Of a stretch of 11,609 nucleotides of DNA, positions 1 to 11,609 are shown piece after piece. The notes beneath the pieces are model-generated. The model saw only the letters and a list, made by a program, of their open reading frames with translations. It was not told the origin of the DNA and ran no database searches. The DNA is from Prevotella sp. GTDB taxonomy: Bacteria > Bacteroidota > Bacteroidia > Bacteroidales > Bacteroidaceae. Positions within the stretch are counted from its first letter, which is position 1, and every line of letters starts with the position of its first letter. The stretch lies in assembly GCA_021203915.1 (NCBI GenBank), contig JAJQAI010000235.1:1-11609 (forward strand), in the 5' to 3' direction. The position numbers and the translations under genes were made by a program.

Positions 1-55
1 GCTACTACTGGGATGAAAATGGAGTACATAAGTTCCTCAACTTTTGTGAATCAGA
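1..55. repeat. Terminal direct repeat marking a circular sequence (copy 1)
   Basis: Bases 1-55 are identical to 11555-11609. Both copies lie inside the terL reading frame, and removing one gives an uninterrupted 584-aa gene. This is the signature of a circular (or tandemly repeated) molecule reported with an assembly overlap rather than a biological terminal repeat; 55 is also a usual assembler k-mer. Confidence 0.95.
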
Positions 56-1538
56 GGTGAGGTTCAATAACTCCTTCGGTAGGACTCCATGTCGTTTTTC
101 TCCCGTGCAGGTCTTCCAGTTTGCTAACATCTTTGGTTTGGTTAAGGAGAATGGTAATAGACTTATTCGTGATGCTTACATATTTGTTCCGAGAAAATTT
201 GGAAAGACAACATCTATGGCCTCGCTAGCCGTTTATGATTTACTTTATGGTGACCATAACGCTGAGGTCTATATTGGAGCAAATAGCTATGACCAAGCCA
301 AAAAGTGTTTCAATGAGGTCAGAGCTATAATGCTAGACCATGACCCTTATCAAGAAACTTTTAGAATAAATCGTGAAATCATCTCATATAAGTACAATGA
401 GAGAGATTCCTTAATCCAATGCCTTACAGCTAACGCTAAGACTAAGGATGGTCTAAGTGCTTCATTAGTGATTATGGATGAATATGCTCAAGCTAGAAAC
501 ACTAAAGGCAAGAATGGTGCTGATTTGAAGAATGTTCTTACAACATCTATGGGTATTAGAGAGAATCCTCTTACCATAGTGATAACAACTGCATCAGACG
601 TAACTGATGGTGCTTTCTATGCAGAATTGGAGGGCGTTAAGGCAGTATTACGTGGTGAGCAAGATAACGATAACCTTTTCGCTGATTTGTTTATGCCCGA
701 TGTAGAAGATAAGGAAGATGACCCTGCAACTTGGGCTAAAGTTCAGCCACATCTAGGAGTAACCATCAAGTCCGATTTTTACGAACTAGAATGGCAGAAG
801 GCTCAACTTAGTGCTGAAAATCTTCTCGCATTTAGAACTAAACTCTTGAATGTATTTGCGGTCAATGAAGCCAAGTCTTGGTTCTCGTTGACTAAAGCCC
901 AAGCACTAATAGGAAAGTTTGATATAGATAAAGAGTCTAAAGGTTCTGAGGTTGCTATTGCGTTTGATTTATCTATCCGTGATGATTTTAGTGCAGTTAG
1001 CTACACATGCTATAAAGGTCAAACTAAGAAGTTCTATTGTCATACGGATTATTATTTCCCCGAAGGTGCGCTTGATGGTCATCCTAATCAACACTTGTAT
1101 AGGGAGTGGGCTGAAGAAGGTCACCTAAAGCTATGTAAAGGCGATAGAATAAGTTTTGAAACGATTGCTGGGGATATACTAAGAAGAACTAGATTCCTCT
1201 ATGTAAGGCGTATAAGCTACGATGCTTATAAAGCCCAAGATTTGGTTAACTTGCTCTCCCAGTATGACCATAGTGGTAGCACCATGACTCCATTCAAGCA
1301 AACTTACGGGGAATTCAATAAGGTTGTAGAGTCTTTTGAGGTTCTTGCCTATTCTAATATTCCTCGCATAGAGTTCAATGATAACCCTATCAACACCTAC
1401 TGCTTAACCAACTGCACCATAGATACGGATAGTCTCGGGAACAAGAAGCCCATCAAAATAGCCCCTAATAAAAAAATTGACGGGGTTATAACGTGTCTCA
1501 TGAACATTGGTGCAATAACTAGTCTTTTAAGGCAATAG
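1..1538 (+). CDS. terL: Terminase large subunit, 3' part (continues from 11338 across the circle joint)
   Basis: Joined to 11338-11554 the gene encodes 584 aa; the junction codon is GGC and the frame is continuous, so a GTG at 57 is not the start. The product is the phage packaging motor: an ATPase that translocates DNA and a nuclease that cuts it. Numbering on the full protein: Walker A PRKFGKT 136-142, Walker B LVIMDE 228-233 with catalytic Asp232-Glu233, coupling motif ITTAS 267-271. An RNase H-like nuclease domain follows, with acidic residues at Asp395 (AFDLS), Asp480 (SYDAY) and Asp566 (KKIDGVIT). Length and motifs fit an intact HK97-like (Terminase_1) large subunit. It follows HNH and TerS, but no portal or capsid gene comes after it; the next gene is the integrase. 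Function by family is firm; use on the element's own DNA is inferred. Confidence 0.95.
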   Translation, partial: YYWDENGVHKFLNFCESEVRFNNSFGRTPCRFSPVQVFQFANIFGLVKENGNRLIRDAYIFVPRKFGKTTSMASLAVYDLLYGDHNAEVYIGANSYDQAKKCFNEVRAIMLDHDPYQETFRINREIISYKYNERDSLIQCLTANAKTKDGLSASLVIMDEYAQARNTKGKNGADLKNVLTTSMGIRENPLTIVITTASDVTDGAFYAELEGVKAVLRGEQDNDNLFADLFMPDVEDKEDDPATWAKVQPHLGVTIKSDFYELEWQKAQLSAENLLAFRTKLLNVFAVNEAKSWFSLTKAQALIGKFDIDKESKGSEVAIAFDLSIRDDFSAVSYTCYKGQTKKFYCHTDYYFPEGALDGHPNQHLYREWAEEGHLKLCKGDRISFETIAGDILRRTRFLYVRRISYDAYKAQDLVNLLSQYDHSGSTMTPFKQTYGEFNKVVESFEVLAYSNIPRIEFNDNPINTYCLTNCTIDTDSLGNKKPIKIAPNKKIDGVITCLMNIGAITSLLRQ

Positions 1539-1678
1539 AGAGTGATTATATACGTTTTGAAGGGTTACCCATTTTCAAAGCTTTAAAGTGTATATTTTAC
1601 ACTTATTCGGGGTAGAGTCAGGTTTTCGCTAAAGCTAAAAAATAGACGAGCTACTAAGTTATAGTTCGGGAAAAATTT

Positions 1679-1686
1679 TACCTTTG
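1679..1686 (+). promoter_or_regulatory. Lone -7 box TACCTTTG, possible promoter
   Basis: TACCTTTG matches the Bacteroidota -7 consensus TAnnTTTG exactly, but no TTG sits about 19 bases upstream, so the promoter is only half supported. If active it would make a transcript of about 55-60 nt ending at the terminator at 1712-1748, with no ORF. Confidence 0.3.
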
Positions 1687-1711
1687 TCGTGCTTTAATTT
1701 AATTTTAATTC

Positions 1712-1748
1712 GGTGGTCATCAGTCGTGAGATTGGTGGCTACTTTTTT
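1712..1748 (+). terminator. Rho-independent terminator rich in G.U pairs, after terL
   Basis: In RNA, 1713-1724 (GTGGTCATCAGT) pairs along its whole length with 1731-1742 (ATTGGTGGCTAC): 12 pairs, of which four are G.U, around a 6-nt loop, followed by TTTTTT (1743-1748). On the minus strand the G.U pairs become C-A mismatches, so it works only for rightward transcription. It probably ends the packaging transcript, about 175 bases after the terL stop. Confidence 0.7.
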
Positions 1749-1841
1749 AGTTGGAAAATATCCATATCAGATTGAAAACGGGTAAAAAAACGGGTAAATT
1801 TTGACTTTTTGTATTTTTCCAAATGTTCGGAAACACCTTTG

Positions 1842-1913
1842 TATATCGGCTTTTCATGGAATATTGTATGTAGTCCCCTATCCACTACAAGGCGTGCTTC
1901 GGCACGTTTTTTT
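1842..1913 (+). ncRNA. Possible small RNA, about 65-70 nt
   Basis: A stretch with no ORF ends in two hairpins: TGTAGT (1869-1874) pairing with ACTACA (1884-1889), and the terminator stem at 1893-1906. Upstream, CACCTTTG (1834-1841) differs by one base from the Bacteroidota -7 box, but the nearest upstream TTG (1809-1811) is 22 bases away rather than 19. The segment lies between two groups of ACGGGTAAA repeats. It could instead be the tail of a longer transcript or a chromosomal terminator carried in attP. Confidence 0.3.
1893..1913 (+). terminator. Rho-independent terminator with UUCG loop
   Basis: Stem CGTGC (1893-1897) / GCACG (1902-1906) closed by a TTCG tetraloop, then seven T (1907-1913). 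It is a strong rightward terminator that insulates the integrase promoter from upstream transcription. Confidence 0.85.
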
Positions 1914-2154
1914 ATGCGTCAGAATGAACTGATATTTATCCCCTTAAGTCCTTGATTATAAGCACTTTATGCTCTACATATAAGGTGTAATCCCCAAAAC
2001 CCTTCTTCCCGTAAATCTTCATTTTTACCCGTTCAGATTCATAAAAACGGGTAAATTTTTATGGTCTAAAGCAGTTTTTTACCCGTTTTTTTAATGCCCA
2101 TAAAGAGCCTTGACAAAAAATAGCGCAAAACGAGTAAAAAAATCGGGTAATTCT

Positions 2155-2184
2155 TTGGTAGATGAAAATTAATGATTACTTTTG
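2155..2184 (+). promoter_or_regulatory. Integrase promoter, exact Bacteroidota consensus
   Basis: TTG at 2155-2157, 19 bases, then TACTTTTG at 2177-2184: an exact match to TTG-N19-TAnnTTTG. Transcription should start near 2190, which puts the upstream in-frame ATG at 2162 outside the mRNA and sets the integrase start at 2210. Degenerate ACGGGTAAA copies end at 2151, directly next to the -33 element. Confidence 0.85.
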
Positions 2185-3624: not shown

Positions 3625-4392
3625 ATGACAACAAGTAAACATGAATTCGTGATTGATATCAGAGAGTATATCAACACCATTTGGAGTGAACCTAAGCATA
3701 TACGGGCTATGCAGAGTTCAATATCGCTACGTGAAACGTGGGACGATTTGCGCAAACTTACTCTTGATTTATGCACCATATATGACATTATAGTTGAGAT
3801 GGAAGCAGACATTGAAAATGCCGCATTCTCGGAGAAGGTCAATTTCCTAAACTCCGAGAGTGAAAGAGCAGATATTGATAGGGAAATATGTCTAGGAAGA
3901 GATATTGCCGTTAGACATCTCATCAAAACTGATTTGGCAAAGCATAAAGATGTCGCTTCGGCTTGGCAGGTTGTTGCTAAGAGAATGGAGAACCTACTGG
4001 AATGGTTGAGTCTAATTGATAGCAAAGAAAAGGGTATCATGTATCCCGAAGAAAAAGACCGAGATAAACTACCTTTTGATTCTAGTCTATTGGAGGCTTA
4101 TAGTGCCTATAAAAAAGATGATAAGGAAGTCTTTAACGGCTTTGTCAATGAAATAGCACGGGGTGTTGCTCGTGAGCTAAATGTTGCTCACCAAATGCAC
4201 CAACATGGTGATATAATTGAAGGTGAAAGACATCTATACACCACTGAAGTTTGCCAGCTATTGGGTAAGTCAAAACGTACCCTAGCTAGGTGGAACAAAG
4301 AAGGTATATTAACGCCAGCTGGCTTTGATGGTAAGACACCATATTATACTTTCCGTCAACTACAAGAGGTTGATGCTAGTCTAAGATTATAA
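3625..4392 (+). CDS. Two-part regulator: unknown N-terminal region plus C-terminal excisionase-type HTH
   Basis: 255 aa, starting 8 bases after int, so probably cotranscribed with it. Residues 1-200 are mostly helical and charged and not recognised. Residues 203-250 form a MerR/HTH_17-type DNA-binding domain: EVCQLLGKS is followed by TLARW, KEG and GKTPYY. This tail is a close paralogue of the C-terminus of the gene at 5598: 23 of 34 aligned positions from EVC to PYY are identical. The two proteins probably bind related sites. Linkage to int and the added N-terminal domain suggest a regulator of integration/excision, possibly one that senses a partner or helper signal; that role is inference. 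No transmembrane or signal sequence is seen. Confidence 0.7.
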   Translation: MTTSKHEFVIDIREYINTIWSEPKHIRAMQSSISLRETWDDLRKLTLDLCTIYDIIVEMEADIENAAFSEKVNFLNSESERADIDREICLGRDIAVRHLIKTDLAKHKDVASAWQVVAKRMENLLEWLSLIDSKEKGIMYPEEKDRDKLPFDSSLLEAYSAYKKDDKEVFNGFVNEIARGVARELNVAHQMHQHGDIIEGERHLYTTEVCQLLGKSKRTLARWNKEGILTPAGFDGKTPYYTFRQLQEVDASLRL

Positions 4393-4415: not shown

Positions 4416-5327
4416 ATGCAATGGAACAAAAAGATTCTAGGGGCTACCATAAAGGAAATGAAAAATCCTTCGTGGCAAAACATAGATGATATTCATCACC
4501 ACTTGGCTGATGGAATACTGCTCCAACTAGTTATTGGAGAGAGATGTAAAATCCTTGACAAGCAAACCCAAGAGGTCTTTGATAGGTGGAAATCTCGTCT
4601 TGTTTATACACAAGGCGAGCTACGGGTGTATAGTGGATTCCCTAAGACCGATATAGTGGAGATATTGCAAGATTTTGCAGAGGCAGTAAAGAAGAGTATT
4701 TCTGCTGATAAAAAGAGTTGGGATAAGAATTATTGCAAAGAAGTGTTGGGCTTCATTGACAACTGGAAGAGCCTGCATGGTGAGAATGTAGAATTGTGGA
4801 GATTATCATTTATTATAGGTAGACTTATAATATTGGATACAACCACCAAGTTGACTCCCGATTATAAAAATGCTATAGACAAAGTGGAATTCGACAATGG
4901 CATTTCTCTAAATCATGTAGAGATTCCGAATATTGAGGATAAGAAAGCTAGTCTTTTATTCACGATGTTCTTTGTGGCTAAAGAGCATTGGTATAAAAAA
5001 TTTATACAAAAACTCAGAAAGGGATTTAAAGTAGAAGTATTAACTACTGGTTTTAAATCCGACCATGTTGCGAAAGCCTTCTTTGATACGCTTAAGGATT
5101 ATTTCCGTTGCGTAGATGGGGGGATGTCTTATATACGCAAGGAAAACCAGTACCTATGTCAAGCACTAATTGATGACCCTAATGTGAAGATGTGGTTTGA
5201 TAGACCAAATGAAAAAAAAGACAAAGAGAGAATTGACAAATTCAAAGAAAGATTCGCCAAGTTAATCACTAAGGAGCTAAAAGGGGTAACCGAGAGATAC
5301 ACTAATCAAATTAAACCTATAGGATAG
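4416..5327 (+). CDS. Unrecognised 303-aa protein, possible cargo gene
   Basis: No family recognised. The protein is soluble-looking, with no signal peptide or clear membrane helix, rich in Lys, Asp and Trp; its C-terminal 40 residues are strongly charged and helical. It has a strong GGAGGA ribosome-binding site (4403-4408) 7 bases before the ATG, which is unusual for Bacteroidota. It lies between the int/HTH pair and a terminator (5351-5379), a slot where satellites often carry accessory genes such as anti-phage or superinfection functions. No catalytic motif supports any specific activity. The reading frame is long and intact, so the gene itself is secure while the function is open. Confidence 0.75.
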   Translation: MQWNKKILGATIKEMKNPSWQNIDDIHHHLADGILLQLVIGERCKILDKQTQEVFDRWKSRLVYTQGELRVYSGFPKTDIVEILQDFAEAVKKSISADKKSWDKNYCKEVLGFIDNWKSLHGENVELWRLSFIIGRLIILDTTTKLTPDYKNAIDKVEFDNGISLNHVEIPNIEDKKASLLFTMFFVAKEHWYKKFIQKLRKGFKVEVLTTGFKSDHVAKAFFDTLKDYFRCVDGGMSYIRKENQYLCQALIDDPNVKMWFDRPNEKKDKERIDKFKERFAKLITKELKGVTERYTNQIKPIG

Positions 5328-5597: not shown

Positions 5598-5909
5598 ATG
5601 GAAAATCAATTAATTGAAAATGGAGAGTTGGTAGTTATTAAACTCTCCCAGTTATCAGAGCTAATTGGCTTAAAGGTTAAGGATGCTATGTTCGGTGCAT
5701 TAGACGAGTATAATGCACGTAAATTGTCAGAGAAAAAACCTGACGAGCGCATATCTCAAAAAGAGGTGTGTGAGATTCTTCACAAGTCTATTAGCACTTT
5801 GAATCGTTGGGAAAAAGAGGGTTATCTGATTCCTGCTGGTCGTAATGGTAAGACTCCATATTACTATAGGAGTCAGATTGATAATCTCGGTAAACTTGAG
5901 GTGGCATGA
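5598..5909 (+). CDS. AlpA/excisionase-like helix-turn-helix protein
   Basis: 103 aa, first gene of the replication operon. Residues 1-45 are a short helical lead; residues 52-98 are an HTH_17/MerR-like domain (ISQKEVCEIL, then STLNRWEKEGYLIP and GKTPYYYR). Such proteins act as excisionases (recombination directionality factors) or AlpA-type activators in prophages and PICIs. Its HTH is 23/34 identical to the C-terminal domain of the protein at 3625-4392. The start is supported by a short A/T-rich leader; no clear ribosome-binding site is present, as is normal in Bacteroidota. The stop overlaps the next ATG (ATGA). Probable early switch gene; whether Xis or activator cannot be decided from sequence. 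Confidence 0.82.
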   Translation: MENQLIENGELVVIKLSQLSELIGLKVKDAMFGALDEYNARKLSEKKPDERISQKEVCEILHKSISTLNRWEKEGYLIPAGRNGKTPYYYRSQIDNLGKLEVA

Positions 5910-6310
5910 AAACACTAACTACTCACAAGAAAAAAGCCTCAACAACTGAGGCTTTTGGAGAAGGGAGGAAAAAAGTCGGAGCTATGAGTTCTGCCCCTTT
6001 TGCTATGGCAAAGGTACGAAAAAATACCCATAGAAGCAGGCTTTTGGACTACTTTTTCAACTGCACTGAAACTGCACGTAGTGCCTCTATTGAACTTGGT
6101 ATTCCTCGTGATGAGTTCTCGTCTCTTTTACCTAAATGGGTGAAAGAAGGATATGTCGTGGTAGCGTTTGTTGACAAAGATAAACGTACCCATAGAATGG
6201 CTAGACATTTCACTGCTAATCCCGATAAGATAAGAAAGATTAAGAAGCAACAATACTTGCAATTATCTTTTCTTGATACGCTGGGTGCAGAGGAAGGAGG
6301 TGACGTATGA
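5906..6310 (+). CDS. Small winged-helix-like protein, unknown function
   Basis: 134 aa from the ATG at 5906, which overlaps the previous stop by ATGA and has GAGG 4 bases upstream. The first 26 residues are Lys/Thr-rich and encode a perfect 10-bp stem-loop (5932-5956); the second in-frame ATG, at 5984, preceded by GGGAGGAA at 5963-5970, gives a 108-aa form that starts after it. Residues about 43-100 read as a winged helix-turn-helix (RLLDYFF, SIELGIPRDEFSSLLPKWVKE, then a beta wing ending HRMARHF), so DNA binding is likely. The tail carries QLSFLD, loosely like a sliding-clamp-binding peptide. It lies upstream of the primase-helicase; a replication or regulatory accessory role is plausible but not shown. 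Confidence 0.75.
   Translation: MKTLTTHKKKASTTEAFGEGRKKVGAMSSAPFAMAKVRKNTHRSRLLDYFFNCTETARSASIELGIPRDEFSSLLPKWVKEGYVVVAFVDKDKRTHRMARHFTANPDKIRKIKKQQYLQLSFLDTLGAEEGGDV
5932..5956. promoter_or_regulatory. Perfect 10-bp stem-loop inside the start of the 5906 gene, possible attenuator
   Basis: AAAAGCCTCA (5932-5941) and TGAGGCTTTT (5947-5956) are exact reverse complements around a 5-nt loop. A-run, GC-rich stem and T-run are the layout of a bidirectional intrinsic terminator, though the T-run is only four bases. It lies 23 bases after the stop of the HTH gene and 27 bases before the alternative start at 5984, so it could limit read-through into the replication genes. Confidence 0.55.
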
Positions 6311-6567
6311 GTAAGTTTATATTCCGTACCGAATGGTATCAGTTCTTTGACAACTTGAACTATGCTAAAACGGGTGGAAGTGGAGATTGGGACAAGTTTA
6401 TACTTGAGAATCTCAAAGAGCTATTATTTATGATTGACGCATACGTTAATCGTGTTCCATTAGTCCCGTCAAAAGAGATGTATATTGCTGAGGCAGTATT
6501 CATGTCTATTAGGTCACAAATAGACAAGGATTTGATGGCATTAAAAGAAACGGAGGTGGTCAAATGA
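6307..6567 (+). CDS. Small protein, paralogue of the next gene, unknown function
   Basis: 86 aa, starting in an ATGA overlap with the upstream stop and with a strong GGAGGTGA ribosome-binding site (6296-6303). It begins MSKFIFR and ends with SQIDKDLMALKE; the middle is helical (ELLFMIDAYVNR, AVFMSIRSQI). The next gene has the same length and the same end motifs, so the two are a tandem duplication. The shape recalls short DUF6291-like proteins found near replication genes of Bacteroidota phages, but that resemblance is from memory and weak. Confidence 0.75.
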   Translation: MSKFIFRTEWYQFFDNLNYAKTGGSGDWDKFILENLKELLFMIDAYVNRVPLVPSKEMYIAEAVFMSIRSQIDKDLMALKETEVVK

Positions 6568-6824
6568 GTAAGTTTATAGTTCGGTCAAAGTGGGTAGAGT
6601 TCTTTGCGGAGTACCTTAAGTCGCATAGCATAAGAACCAATAGCAAAGAAGGTCATAAATTTCTAGCTTCGTTTTTCGTTCTCATGGTAAAAATCGCAGA
6701 ATACACAAGGACGGGCAAATGCTCCTTCAGCAAATCTCAATACCGAGAAAAGGCGTTTTTTGAAATGCTTAAATCGCAAATAGACACCGATATGGAGCTA
6801 TTAAAGAAAGGAGGTATAGAATGA
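6564..6824 (+). CDS. Small protein, tandem paralogue of the previous gene
   Basis: 86 aa, ATGA overlaps at both ends and GGAGGTGG (6552-6559) upstream. It shares MSKFI-x-R-x2-W-x2-FF at the start and SQID-x-D-x3-LK at the end with the protein at 6307-6567, with little identity in the middle, so the duplication is old. The middle is more basic (EGHKFLASFF, RTGKC), suggesting divergence of surface function, perhaps two halves of a heteromer. Translational coupling to the primase-helicase points to a replication-linked role. No catalytic motif is visible. Confidence 0.75.
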   Translation: MSKFIVRSKWVEFFAEYLKSHSIRTNSKEGHKFLASFFVLMVKIAEYTRTGKCSFSKSQYREKAFFEMLKSQIDTDMELLKKGGIE

Positions 6825-9487: not shown

Positions 9488-9805
9488 ATTCGGACGAAGT
9501 GACGAACCTTCTCTTGGGGGTTCGTCATTCTGAAACACCGATGTACACTAGCTTTGGACGAAGTGACGAACTTGACTAAGTATTTTCAAACTTTTGAAAA
9601 ATAAAAAAAAAGATAAAGGACTAGACATGGTAGATATAGAAATATATATTACTTATAAAATGTTGCGAAAAAGGTTCGTCAGGTTCGTCAGTTCGTCTAA
9701 TCCCAGTGTTTATCGGCCTTTGATTTGACGAGCTATTTTTAGGGGTTCGTCAGTTCGTCAAAATAACATTAATAACGCCAGTTATGGCTAAAAAAATTTA
9801 AAAAA
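9488..9805. other. ori: Replication origin: GTTCGTCA iterons around an AT-rich core
   Basis: No gene lies here. Seven exact GTTCGTCA units: reverse orientation at 9500-9507 and 9564-9571; forward at 9520-9527, 9674-9681, 9683-9690, 9745-9752 and 9753-9760. Near copies are at 9492-9499, 9556-9563, 9691-9698 and 9726-9733. GGACGAAGTGACGAAC is an exact 16-bp direct repeat (9492-9507, 9556-9571). 9500-9508/9519-9527 is a 9-bp inverted repeat. Left units mostly face left and right units face right, around about 100 bp of A/T-rich DNA (9572-9672) with the palindrome TTTTCAAA-ct-TTTGAAAA (9583-9600). This matches the known SaPI origin plan: two iteron sets flanking an AT-rich melting region, just 3' of the rep gene. 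Confidence 0.85.
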
Positions 9806-10228
9806 ATGAAAAAGACAATGGATTTTATTGATAGCGAAGCCAAAAGGCTATTCGCTATGCCAACATTTAATGTGGCAAAAAAGAGAGTGGACAATGATTT
9901 TGAGACTCTCATGACCAAAGAGGAACATGAAGCAGAAGACCACTTACGCAATGAATTATATTCAATTTTTGCTGAGTATTTAAAGAACAAAGGCGTTTAC
10001 AATGAAAAGAGACATGAAGTCCCCATTATAATAGCGCTTAACCTGCGGAAGTTTTATCATATCCTAACGGAGATGTTGTATTCCGACCATTGCAGGGAAT
10101 GCCCCCATTTGAAAGCACGCTACGAATCGGTGTTTAAGGGGTATTGTGAGATTCTTGAGCAATTGGGATTACTCGTGGAGGTTGAACAAAAGTCTGAAGT
10201 TCCTGCTACTACTGAACAAAAAGATTGA
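9806..10228 (+). CDS. Small protein upstream of HNH endonuclease, unknown function
   Basis: 140 aa, helical and charged, not recognised. Cys96-x-x-Cys99 with His101 and Cys114 (in CRECPH and KGYC) could bind a metal. The tail (about 127-140) is low-complexity and acidic/polar. The ATG at 9806 follows an A-rich leader typical of Bacteroidota; an in-frame ATG at 9818 is an alternative. It is the first gene of the packaging group, two bases before the HNH start at 10231, so it may assist DNA cutting or late expression, but this rests on position only. Confidence 0.7.
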   Translation: MKKTMDFIDSEAKRLFAMPTFNVAKKRVDNDFETLMTKEEHEAEDHLRNELYSIFAEYLKNKGVYNEKRHEVPIIIALNLRKFYHILTEMLYSDHCRECPHLKARYESVFKGYCEILEQLGLLVEVEQKSEVPATTEQKD

Positions 10229-10230
10229 GT

Positions 10231-10662
10231 ATGCTTAGAAAAAACGCTAACTTTAAACCGAAGGCTCGTAGAGCAAGTGCTAATAGAACTAGCACCAATA
10301 ACTCCAAACCAAAGAAAAGCCGTAAAGACTATCATGATGAGGAGTATAATCGCTTGTTGCAATCAAAAAGGTGGAGATTGCTTCGGAAGCAGGTTCTTGA
10401 GGAGAACAAGTGCTTGTGTCGTAGATGCATGGAGCAAGGCAGGGTGTCTTTGGCTACTACCATACACCACATAACGCCAGTGCAATGGGGCGTTAGCCTC
10501 AGAGAGAAAGAAAGACTTGCCTTTGATAGAAACAATCTTATGCCTTTATGTGACGAGTGTCATAAGGAAGTTCATCGTACAATGGGCAAGCAAACTCTTA
10601 AGGCTAATCAAGCTAAACTCAAGGCTTACTTAGATGATTTTCGTGAAAGATTTCTTGAATGA
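10231..10662 (+). CDS. HNH endonuclease, packaging-associated
   Basis: 143 aa from ATG 10231; a TTG at 10225 would add two residues and is less likely. The N-terminal 35 residues are very basic. The HNH fold is complete: Cys63-x2-Cys66 (CRRC), the catalytic pair in IHHITPV (His79-His80), Asn102 in NNLMPLC, and Cys107-x2-Cys110-His111 with His115. Small HNH proteins encoded next to TerS and TerL are required for cos cleavage in HK97-like and several Gram-positive cos phages. The position here, followed by TerS and TerL, argues for that role rather than a homing endonuclease. The sequence cut is unknown. Confidence 0.88.
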   Translation: MLRKNANFKPKARRASANRTSTNNSKPKKSRKDYHDEEYNRLLQSKRWRLLRKQVLEENKCLCRRCMEQGRVSLATTIHHITPVQWGVSLREKERLAFDRNNLMPLCDECHKEVHRTMGKQTLKANQAKLKAYLDDFRERFLE

Positions 10663-10780
10663 AAGATTTTAGAAAAAGGGGGTAGCGTTTTTAATCGGAG
10701 GGTGTTTTCCTAGTAAAGCACGTCTGCTCTCTTTTTCTCACGAGAGTGAATATGGTATTAATATTAACAAATAAAAAAAT
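10663..10780. other. Gap between HNH and TerS, possible cos or promoter region
   Basis: 118 bp without a gene. It contains two G-rich patches (10676-10683 and 10697-10703), an imperfect hairpin CTCTC (10727-10731)/GAGAG (10742-10746), the palindrome TTAATATTAA (10758-10767) and an A-rich leader before the TerS ATG. No exact -33/-7 promoter is present. In cos phages the cut site lies near HNH/terS, so this is a reasonable cos candidate without direct proof. Confidence 0.3.
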
Positions 10781-11326
10781 ATGAAAAGAAAACAACTTGT
10801 TGAGCTAGCTAATGAGCGCAAGGCTCAGTTCCTAGACGAATTGCGTAAAAGTGGTGGTGTGATAACCATAGCACTTAAAGCCATTAATGTTTCTTCGGTA
10901 CGCTACTACAAATGGGTAGAAACGGATGAGGAATTCAAGGCTAAAGTTGAGGCGTTGCTTTCAGAACTTAAGGCAGAAAATACGCCAGTTCTGATTATTA
11001 ACGCCAATAAGTCCCAAGTGAAAAAATGGGAAAAGGAAATCCGTAATAGTGTAAACATCCCTGCAGGTGACTTACCACTACTACGAAGAAGATTATCGTA
11101 TGTTTCCGATGTGTCTGCGGTGTTTGAACAATGGGGAATTAAGGCTAAGGCTTCAGATTGCTCTAACGCTACCCTATCATCTTTCTGCTCAGTTGCCAAA
11201 ATTATGGAAACGGCATTGAATGATTTGGATGTTGCGATTAACTCCATTAGGGATAGAGAAGGCAAGCGTAAATTCACGTTTGACATTACTGCCCAGCCTA
11301 TGGAGAAGAAAATAGTTAAACTATAA
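10781..11326 (+). CDS. terS: Probable terminase small subunit
   Basis: 181 aa, ending 11 bases before terL. Residues 12-58 form an N-terminal helix-turn-helix of the type found in phage small terminases (KAQFLDELRKSGG, then ALKAINVSSVRYYKWVETDEEF), which recognises the packaging site. The central part (about 60-160) is helical and suits ring oligomerisation; the C-terminus is short and basic/hydrophobic and may contact TerL. Length is within the usual TerS range. The assignment rests on the HTH pattern and on the HNH-TerS-TerL order. In PICIs the element's TerS redirects packaging to satellite DNA; here a cognate TerL is also encoded. Confidence 0.82.
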   Translation: MKRKQLVELANERKAQFLDELRKSGGVITIALKAINVSSVRYYKWVETDEEFKAKVEALLSELKAENTPVLIINANKSQVKKWEKEIRNSVNIPAGDLPLLRRRLSYVSDVSAVFEQWGIKAKASDCSNATLSSFCSVAKIMETALNDLDVAINSIRDREGKRKFTFDITAQPMEKKIVKL

Positions 11327-11337
11327 TCTATTGTGCC

Positions 11338-11609
11338 ATGACTCAAGAGGAAATTAGGTATCTAACGGAGTTAAAAACTGATACGGCATTGTGGCTCTCT
11401 GATTATAAAGATGAGTTATTCTCTAGGTATAAGTTGGCTCTAGTTAATACAGATAAACGCATTGCGGAATATGTGGCTATGGTTATCGCTAATCCCGATA
11501 GCCATAACCTTTATGAGCTATTAAAACTGAAGCGCTTCTTCGATATGCTAGACGGCTACTACTGGGATGAAAATGGAGTACATAAGTTCCTCAACTTTTG
11601 TGAATCAGA
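11338..11609 (+). CDS. terL: Terminase large subunit, 5' part (continues at position 1)
   Basis: The N-terminal 72 codons and the first base of codon 73 lie at 11338-11554; 11555-11609 repeat the start of the window. Translation begins MTQEEIRYLTEL at an ATG 11 bases after the terS stop and is helical and charged up to the joint (FFDMLDGYYWDENG). The region precedes the ATPase core and probably belongs to the N-terminal segment that contacts TerS. Together with 1-1538 it gives the 584-aa protein described there. Confidence 0.93.
   Translation, partial: MTQEEIRYLTELKTDTALWLSDYKDELFSRYKLALVNTDKRIAEYVAMVIANPDSHNLYELLKLKRFFDMLDGYYWDENGVHKFLNFCES
11555..11609. repeat. Terminal direct repeat marking a circular sequence (copy 2)
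   Basis: Identical to bases 1-55; see copy 1. Counting it once gives the 11,554-bp circle. Confidence 0.95.

Follow-up and report, generated by a model that had tools for sequence, protein, structure and literature searches.

The analysed stretch of DNA, in the following called the window, has a length of 11,609 bases and represents the whole of one contig (C286) of a Prevotella MAG (1.64 Mb, 336 contigs, 71.7% complete). Its first 55 bases are identical to its last 55, which marks a circular molecule. Removal of this overlap leaves a circle of 11,554 bases, and besides the terminal pair no exact repeat of 55-base length was listed in the window. The GC content is even along the contig (0.35 to 0.41 in 1-kb windows), all 12 main open reading frames (ORFs) are intact and located on the + strand, and the coding density is approximately 88% (Table 1). 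When the circle is opened between terL and int, int becomes the first gene and terL the last, the full order being int, the 255-aa MerR/HTH-like protein, the 303-aa protein, the xis-like HTH protein, the 134-aa protein, the two 86-aa proteins, VapE, the iterons, the 140-aa protein, HNH, TerS and TerL. Searches against PHROGs (12 of the 12 main ORFs), Pfam (10 of 12) and NCBIfam (10 of 12) gave no match to portal, capsid, protease, connector, tail or lysis families. Since the molecule is closed, the absence of head genes is not an effect of a contig edge; a head gene of an unrecognised type may be present among the ORFs without known function. The sequence-only reading had described an element with its own HNH, TerS and TerL and no portal or capsid, and the family searches on the closed circle confirmed this gene content. 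Its coordinates were right within one start codon, HNH beginning with a TTG at 10225 and 10231 being an in-frame ATG. That the element was also called a satellite is an interpretation.

Table 1. Features of the window, with positions on the forward strand and the matches or repeats on which each assignment is based.
Feature	Position	Strand	Evidence or remark
Direct terminal repeat, 55 bp	1..55		identical to 11555-11609; marks circular molecule
TerL, C-terminal part (ATPase and nuclease domains)	1..1538	+	PF03354, PF20441, phrog_9; presumed catalytic residues kept
Non-coding stretch before int	1539..2161		five exact ACGGGTAA repeats at 1778-1797 and 2025-2086
Tyrosine integrase, 484 aa	2162..3616	+	PF00589 E=8.2e-10, phrog_1 E=6.1e-24
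255-aa protein, C-terminal MerR/HTH_17-like domain	3625..4392	+	HTH_17 E=3e-4, MerR_1 E=9e-4, below Pfam cut-offs
303-aa protein, no function assigned	4416..5327	+	no match better than E=0.05
103-aa excisionase-like HTH protein (xis/AlpA-like)	5598..5909	+	MerR_1 E=5.1e-5, phrog_66 E=4.7e-5
134-aa protein, no function assigned	5906..6310	+	no match better than E=0.1
86-aa protein, first of pair	6307..6567	+	DNA repeats D4, D5; no family
86-aa protein, second of pair	6564..6824	+	DNA repeats D4, D5; no family
VapE-type primase-helicase, 888 aa	6821..9487	+	PF05272 E=4.1e-65, phrog_256 E=2.7e-180
Probable replication origin	9500..9760		seven exact GTTCGTCA iterons in two sets (9500-9571, 9674-9760)
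140-aa protein, no function assigned	9806..10228	+	weak only: phrog_14333 E=0.013, PADLOC E=0.0044
HNH endonuclease of packaging cassette	10225..10662	+	PF01844 E=4.7e-9, phrog_144 E=2.2e-22; TTG start
Terminase small subunit TerS, 181 aa, divergent	10781..11326	+	phrog_4044 E=2.9e-6; between HNH and TerL
TerL, N-terminal part	11338..11609	+	runs on at position 56

Integration and replication genes

The integrase residues R320, K347, H430, R433, H457 and Y465, which we take to be the catalytic ones, are invariant in an alignment of ten sequences. In the non-coding stretch before int, the ACGGGTAA repeat was observed five times where 0.17 occurrences are expected, and these repeats are likely to be arm sites of the integrase. 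Because they look like arm sites, the attP core was placed at about 1800-2020, where it is probably located. A search for attB, in which int-proximal DNA was compared with the MAG and 149 relatives, yielded short matches at chance level only. An att site in a tRNA or host gene was dropped as a candidate on the basis of these matches; seven of the matched loci were scanned and contained no tRNA.

The VapE-type primase-helicase is 35-36% identical to its nearest others. On its 3' side the two sets of GTTCGTCA iterons (0.18 expected) flank a stretch of 78% A+T (9572-9673), and this cluster has the appearance of a probable replication origin. Two iteron sets around an A+T-rich stretch, 3' of the rep gene, are described for PICI origins in excerpts of PMC6092414. 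As a proof that the element is a PICI, the iterons were nonetheless rejected after a phage control based on mononucleotide shuffles. A repeated 8-mer after the primase exceeded every shuffle in 18 of 35 loci from related phages (a set that includes copies of the same locus), and since these phage loci have repeat clusters too, iterons do not discriminate PICIs in this group. The PICI-like element L106, described below, showed no repeated 8-mer of this kind.

The remaining genes of this part of the circle gave few matches. The 255-aa protein is a possible regulator on the basis of its MerR/HTH_17-like domain. The 303-aa protein has no relative among viral contigs, and the single-sequence structure models of this protein and of the 140-aa protein were unusable (pLDDT of 38.8 and 50.3, respectively). 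For eight proteins compared with PADLOC, the matches were to the HTH and HNH domains only, apart from a single weak one. The two similar 86-aa ORFs lie in tandem directly 5' of VapE (window positions 6307-6824) and are apparent paralogues.

The packaging genes and their relatives

The part of TerL that is encoded in one stretch matches PF03354 (E=1.1e-23), PF20441 (E=4.8e-22) and phrog_9 (E=8.7e-117). The earlier suggestion that terL continues at 1-1538 was borne out, as the two parts joined across the junction (11338-11609 and 56-1538) form a single frame of 584 aa, in register with relatives and free of stops and frameshifts. This frame contains the motifs VPRKFGKTT and VIMDEYAQ and three aspartates, which are presumably the Walker A motif, the Walker B motif and nuclease residues. 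The window TerL groups with those of Bacteroidales HK97-type phages, to which it is 60-66% identical, and its identity to any TerL found is at most 66%. In a phylogenetic tree its sister is the TerL of another contig of the same MAG, C182 (support 100/99), a grouping in which two long branches meet and which was flagged as possibly false. When we counted the columns that are invariant in 37 other TerLs of at least 55% identity, the window TerL broke 9 of 191; the same count gave 10 of 192 for C182, 8 of 190 for L032, and 0 to 5 with a median of 0 for the other rows shown. Judged by this alignment, the window TerL is among the more divergent members of the group, though not at the catalytic motifs. 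Relative to C182, terL differs at 179, 115 and 346 of the 580 first, second and third codon positions (31%, 20% and 60%), with a dN of 0.29 and a saturated dS; at the codon level the TerL protein is constrained, in a comparison that cannot tell a satellite branch from a phage branch.

The identities of HNH and TerL are firm, and TerS is the weakest assignment of the three. HNH is 38% identical to a Prevotella phage HNH across 107 residues. TerS matched no Pfam TerS family, and among 298 candidates from a large protein database only TerS itself was retrieved at E<=0.01. Its residues 10-73 aligned to a profile of 10 phage TerS sequences with an HHalign probability of 97.2, its residues 1-57 weakly match the annotated TerS of Bordetella phages (33%, E=0.3), and it is 33% identical to the C182 TerS over 46 residues. 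The likeness to phage TerS is thus confined to the N-terminal region, with no reported match for the C-terminal part. The divergence of TerS was rejected as a sole sign of a satellite, because phages show comparable divergence: in a control that identified TerS genes from their position and length alone, TerS was as divergent as the window TerS is from its best match in 32% of 415 phage pairs whose TerLs are similar, and 13 of 79 phages had a TerS as isolated as that of the window.

To place terL in context, matches were collected from 398 genomes of the genus (15 with terL at E<=1e-20) and 399 genomes of the family (10 with terL at E<=1e-60), the MAG of the window being included in both counts. 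The comparison covered 111 loci with 91 distinct TerLs; left out of the 91 were L041-L043 and L095-L099 (copies of counted stretches), L102 (which has head genes), and L076-L093 (short copies, or seven distant TerLs). The phages of this TerL group have the order primase, helicase, HNH, TerS, TerL, followed by portal, protease and MCP. Head genes were present in the fetched stretch for 80 of the 91 distinct relatives, on the same strand in 77 cases and on the opposite strand in 3. Of the others, 10 have less than 2.3 kb downstream and are not judgeable, and one is truncated inside its contig (L224). These TerL relatives are therefore phages, and represent the likely donor family rather than relatives of the element as a whole. 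The sequence-only reading had considered that the locus might run on into portal and capsid genes in relatives, or that terL might be disrupted in most of them. The former holds for these 80 TerL relatives, which are phages, but not for the whole element, of which no second copy was found. The latter does not apply, with one of 91 truncated (L224) and L024 looking split into two frames.

Among the seven distant TerL loci (28-32% identity), the portal gene adjoins TerL in L085 and L088, MCP and protease are encoded on the opposite strand in L293, and L292 has a tail tape-measure gene. L291, L294 and L295 are not judgeable for head genes, which brings the total of such loci to 13 (10 close and 3 distant). 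L291 (G222:C70, 6690 bases) encodes HNH, a 140-aa protein, TerS and a TerL of 648 aa that belongs to another type, and no head gene was recognised in the 3 kb from TerL to the contig end. Both its TerS and its 140-aa protein are similar to proteins of L106. In L088 (G025:C2), the distant terL has seven in-frame TAG codons, with portal pieces alongside, which may point to a phage in which TAG codes for an amino acid, or to decay. In the Bacteroidales phages L019, L023, L034 and L036, about 3.5-5 kb of variable genes separate TerL from portal, and this gap is a possible cargo spot.

The sequence-only reading had also recommended a search for further headless copies. This was unsuccessful: no second copy of the whole element was found among the TerL matches of the 398 genus and 399 family genomes, in viral contigs or in genome contigs, and the window is the single known copy. 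Single-protein scans of viral contigs with the integrase, VapE, the 303-aa protein and HNH gave two integrase relatives and nothing more. An integrase profile scan yielded 53 loci, and phmmer detected no TerL or head gene in the stretches fetched for them, a search that other TerL types could escape.

Resemblance to known satellites and phages

For comparison with known elements, TerL matches were obtained in 473 E. coli records, of which 20 were listed and four loci read, and in 2105 records of a phage collection, of which we read five (F1, F2, Pmp7, Pmp8 and vB_KppS-Ant). The cf-PICI label on the E. coli loci and on vB_KppS-Ant is our own and follows the definition given in excerpts of PMC10690885. 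All four E. coli loci have the order primase, further genes, MCP, protease, portal, connectors, HNH, TerS, TerL, a small ORF and host genes, with int visible at the far end in two of the four stretches. The circular order of vB_KppS-Ant agrees with this, except that terL is followed by a further gene, which is annotated as tape measure. The window shares with these elements int, a regulator, a primase and HNH-TerS-TerL before the presumed far att, as well as a common direction for almost every gene and a similar type of TerL. In the cf-PICIs, by contrast, primase and HNH are separated by MCP, protease, portal and connectors, at the place where the window has the 140-aa ORF. The window thus has the E. 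coli cf-PICI order minus the capsid-to-connector block. It encodes HNH, TerS and TerL but lacks capsid, protease, portal and connectors, and because of this lack of head genes we did not file it as a cf-PICI. The portal, capsid and tail genes that accompany the terminase in a complete HK97-type phage are likewise absent.

The nearest gene set that we saw is that of Pasteurella Pmp7 (OR544138, 10.7 kb), which, like the window, is without portal and capsid. Pmp7 and Pmp8 (OR544139) share HNH-TerS-TerL, an AlpA-like gene, primase and int with the window, but in both int is on the opposite strand beside the primase, further genes follow 3' of TerL, and TerL is about 31% identical. Pmp8 has a head block directly before HNH-TerS-TerL. 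The Pmp7 record ends inside Ad1 and keeps a Neck1 gene, and its packaging region is 94.7% identical to that of Pmp8; Pmp7 is best seen, from these records, as a cut or truncated cf-PICI.

Classical PICIs use the TerL of their helper. The Gram-negative ones share with the window the co-directional order int-regulator-xis-rep-ori, an A+T-rich stretch 3' of the rep gene that is bordered by iterons, and the absence of structural and lytic genes. They differ in that some carry TerS only, according to excerpts of PMC6092414, whereas the window adds TerL and HNH. Of the features by which a PICI is recognised, the window has int with a replication module and a candidate master regulator (int, VapE and the MerR/xis-like HTH proteins, the regulator assignment being weak), unidirectional transcription (12 of 12 main ORFs on the + strand) and the origin layout, for which the phage control covered the presence of a repeat cluster. 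It has no structural or lytic genes, and its size of 11.55 kb is slightly under the approximately 12-15 kb given for Gram-negative PICIs in the excerpted text of PMC6092414. By its gene content the window therefore has all PICI features open to sequence testing except att, with TerL and HNH added. The earlier placement of the layout between PICIs and cf-PICIs is supported by both gene content and gene order. Gram-negative PICIs that captured varying clusters of prophage late genes have already been described (excerpts of PMC10111431), so that a partial late-gene set is, as far as that text goes, not unheard of. Among the matches listed in literature searches, no title or abstract described a satellite with TerS and TerL but without a head, and among the 25 matches listed of 82 on phage satellites with terminase in Bacteroid/Prevotella, none used the term.

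The Bacteroides phages F1, F2 and F4 and Prevotella prophages share the order primase-HNH-TerS-TerL with the window, at TerL identities of 48.6% (F1, F2, F4) and about 62-64% (Prevotella prophages). F1 (F2 being a partial record) and the Prevotella prophages differ from the window by the portal, protease and capsid genes after TerL.

A related element was found in another genome of the genus (L106:980-8560, G083:C70). It is 7.6 kb long, lies in a tRNA-Gln with 17-bp att repeats, and shares with the window the integrase family (41%), a xis-like gene and a PICI-like order. It differs in having TerS without TerL, no TerL having been found in it, and a DUF3987 helicase in place of VapE. Its TerS is weak by family, and the homologue of this TerS in L291 directly precedes a TerL (87 bits); the two loci share another protein beside TerS (34%). 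Another member of the integrase family lies at a tRNA-Gln with 14-bp repeats (L109). The att regions of L106 and the window have at most 12-13 bases in common. With its int, xis-like gene and TerS, the L106 element indicates that PICI-like elements exist in this genus.

Origin and function of the element

We consider the window, with a probability of roughly 0.6, to be the circular form, excised or replicating, of an 11.55-kb integrative Prevotella phage satellite that has its own cos-type terminase and fills helper proheads. The closed circle and the intact genes for integrase, primase-helicase and HNH-TerS-TerL were observed directly; what we infer are the steps of induction, docking and packaging, and a block of the helper, if there is one. 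An incoming or co-resident phage would induce the element, which would then be excised and replicate from the iteron origin. The satellite TerS would pick the satellite's own DNA, and TerL together with HNH would cut the concatemer at a cos site; none was located in the window. Since the element is without a portal gene, TerL would have to dock on the portal of the helper's prohead, which would be filled with satellite DNA. The helper would be an HK97-type phage of Bacteroidales whose TerL is related to that of the satellite, and would provide prohead, tail and lysis. Judged by its relationships, the terminase probably derives from a phage of this kind rather than from a known cf-PICI.

The foremost alternative is that the window arose by deletion from a temperate Bacteroidales phage, or is what remains of such a phage in decay; the early, replication and packaging half would have been kept together with int and the structural half lost, leaving a circle without transmission of its own. 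Primase, helicase, HNH, TerS and TerL do occur in the same order in phages of this TerL group, about half of which (the 18 of 35 loci) also have the repeat clusters after the primase. Three Prevotella prophages (L178, L208 and L221) carry the HNH-TerS-TerL cassette in the orientation opposite to that of their head genes, with a convergent integrase located 0.4-1.6 kb past terL; a single deletion in such a prophage could produce a layout like that of the window. We nevertheless regard a remnant as unlikely, given that the 12 ORFs are intact at this coding density and that TerL has conserved its catalytic sites although it is so distant from any TerL found. Moreover, the 303-, 134- and 140-aa proteins and the first 86-aa protein are unmatched among the ORFs of the compared loci, and the 255-aa protein is weakly matched, which argues against a fresh deletion of a sampled phage.

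An integrative plasmid-like element, using the terminase for concatemer resolution or to compete with an incoming phage for its portal, would agree with the circular form, the probable origin with its primase-helicase and the several genes without assigned function. This we hold to be quite improbable, as the full HNH-TerS-TerL set is held together in phage order, which points to packaging, and PADLOC recognised little besides the HTH and HNH domains. An assembly artefact, in which a prophage repeat closed a false circle and the head genes were dropped, could explain why the overlap measures exactly 55 bases, assemblers commonly working with words of this length, in a closure that rests on the assembly, but seems highly improbable with TerL in frame and in register across the junction, an even GC content, and a continuous sequence from int to TerL inside one contig.

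If the element is a satellite, it would be of a kind in which the motor is complete and the head is missing, known satellites either borrowing the helper motor apart from TerS or building a whole head with a motor of their own. We suggest tentatively, at somewhat less than even odds, that it stands for a 'motor-only' class, in which a complete cos terminase and not just TerS is clamped on the portal of the helper prohead. Such a class would be a stable stage between PICIs, with TerS at most, and cf-PICIs, with the whole head, and would have arisen independently in Bacteroidota from local phages. An element with a whole motor but no head would allow tests of how readily a terminase accepts a foreign portal, and of whether the motor or the head came first in the origin of cf-PICIs. 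It would also extend PICI-like satellites to Prevotella, outside the Gammaproteobacteria from which alone Gram-negative PICIs were reported in the 2018 survey, according to excerpts of PMC6092414.

As to a helper, portal (PF04860) and HK97 capsid (PF05065) had no match in the MAG, which is 72% complete. Its contig C182 encodes a TerL that is 66% identical to that of the window, a phage-type TerS and a 232-aa gene product found in phages. The contig ends 55 bases past terL, so that the downstream region is not visible, and its end has no clear overlap with another contig. C182 could belong to the helper, or to a second element of the same kind.

In the TerL of C182 (L094, G000:C182, 56-1798, - strand), a serine stands in place of the first of the nuclease aspartates (AFSLS for AFDLS; residue 395 of the window TerL). 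This change needs at least two base changes, and the aspartate is kept in the window and in all 36 other TerLs compared; the nuclease of the C182 TerL may be impaired.
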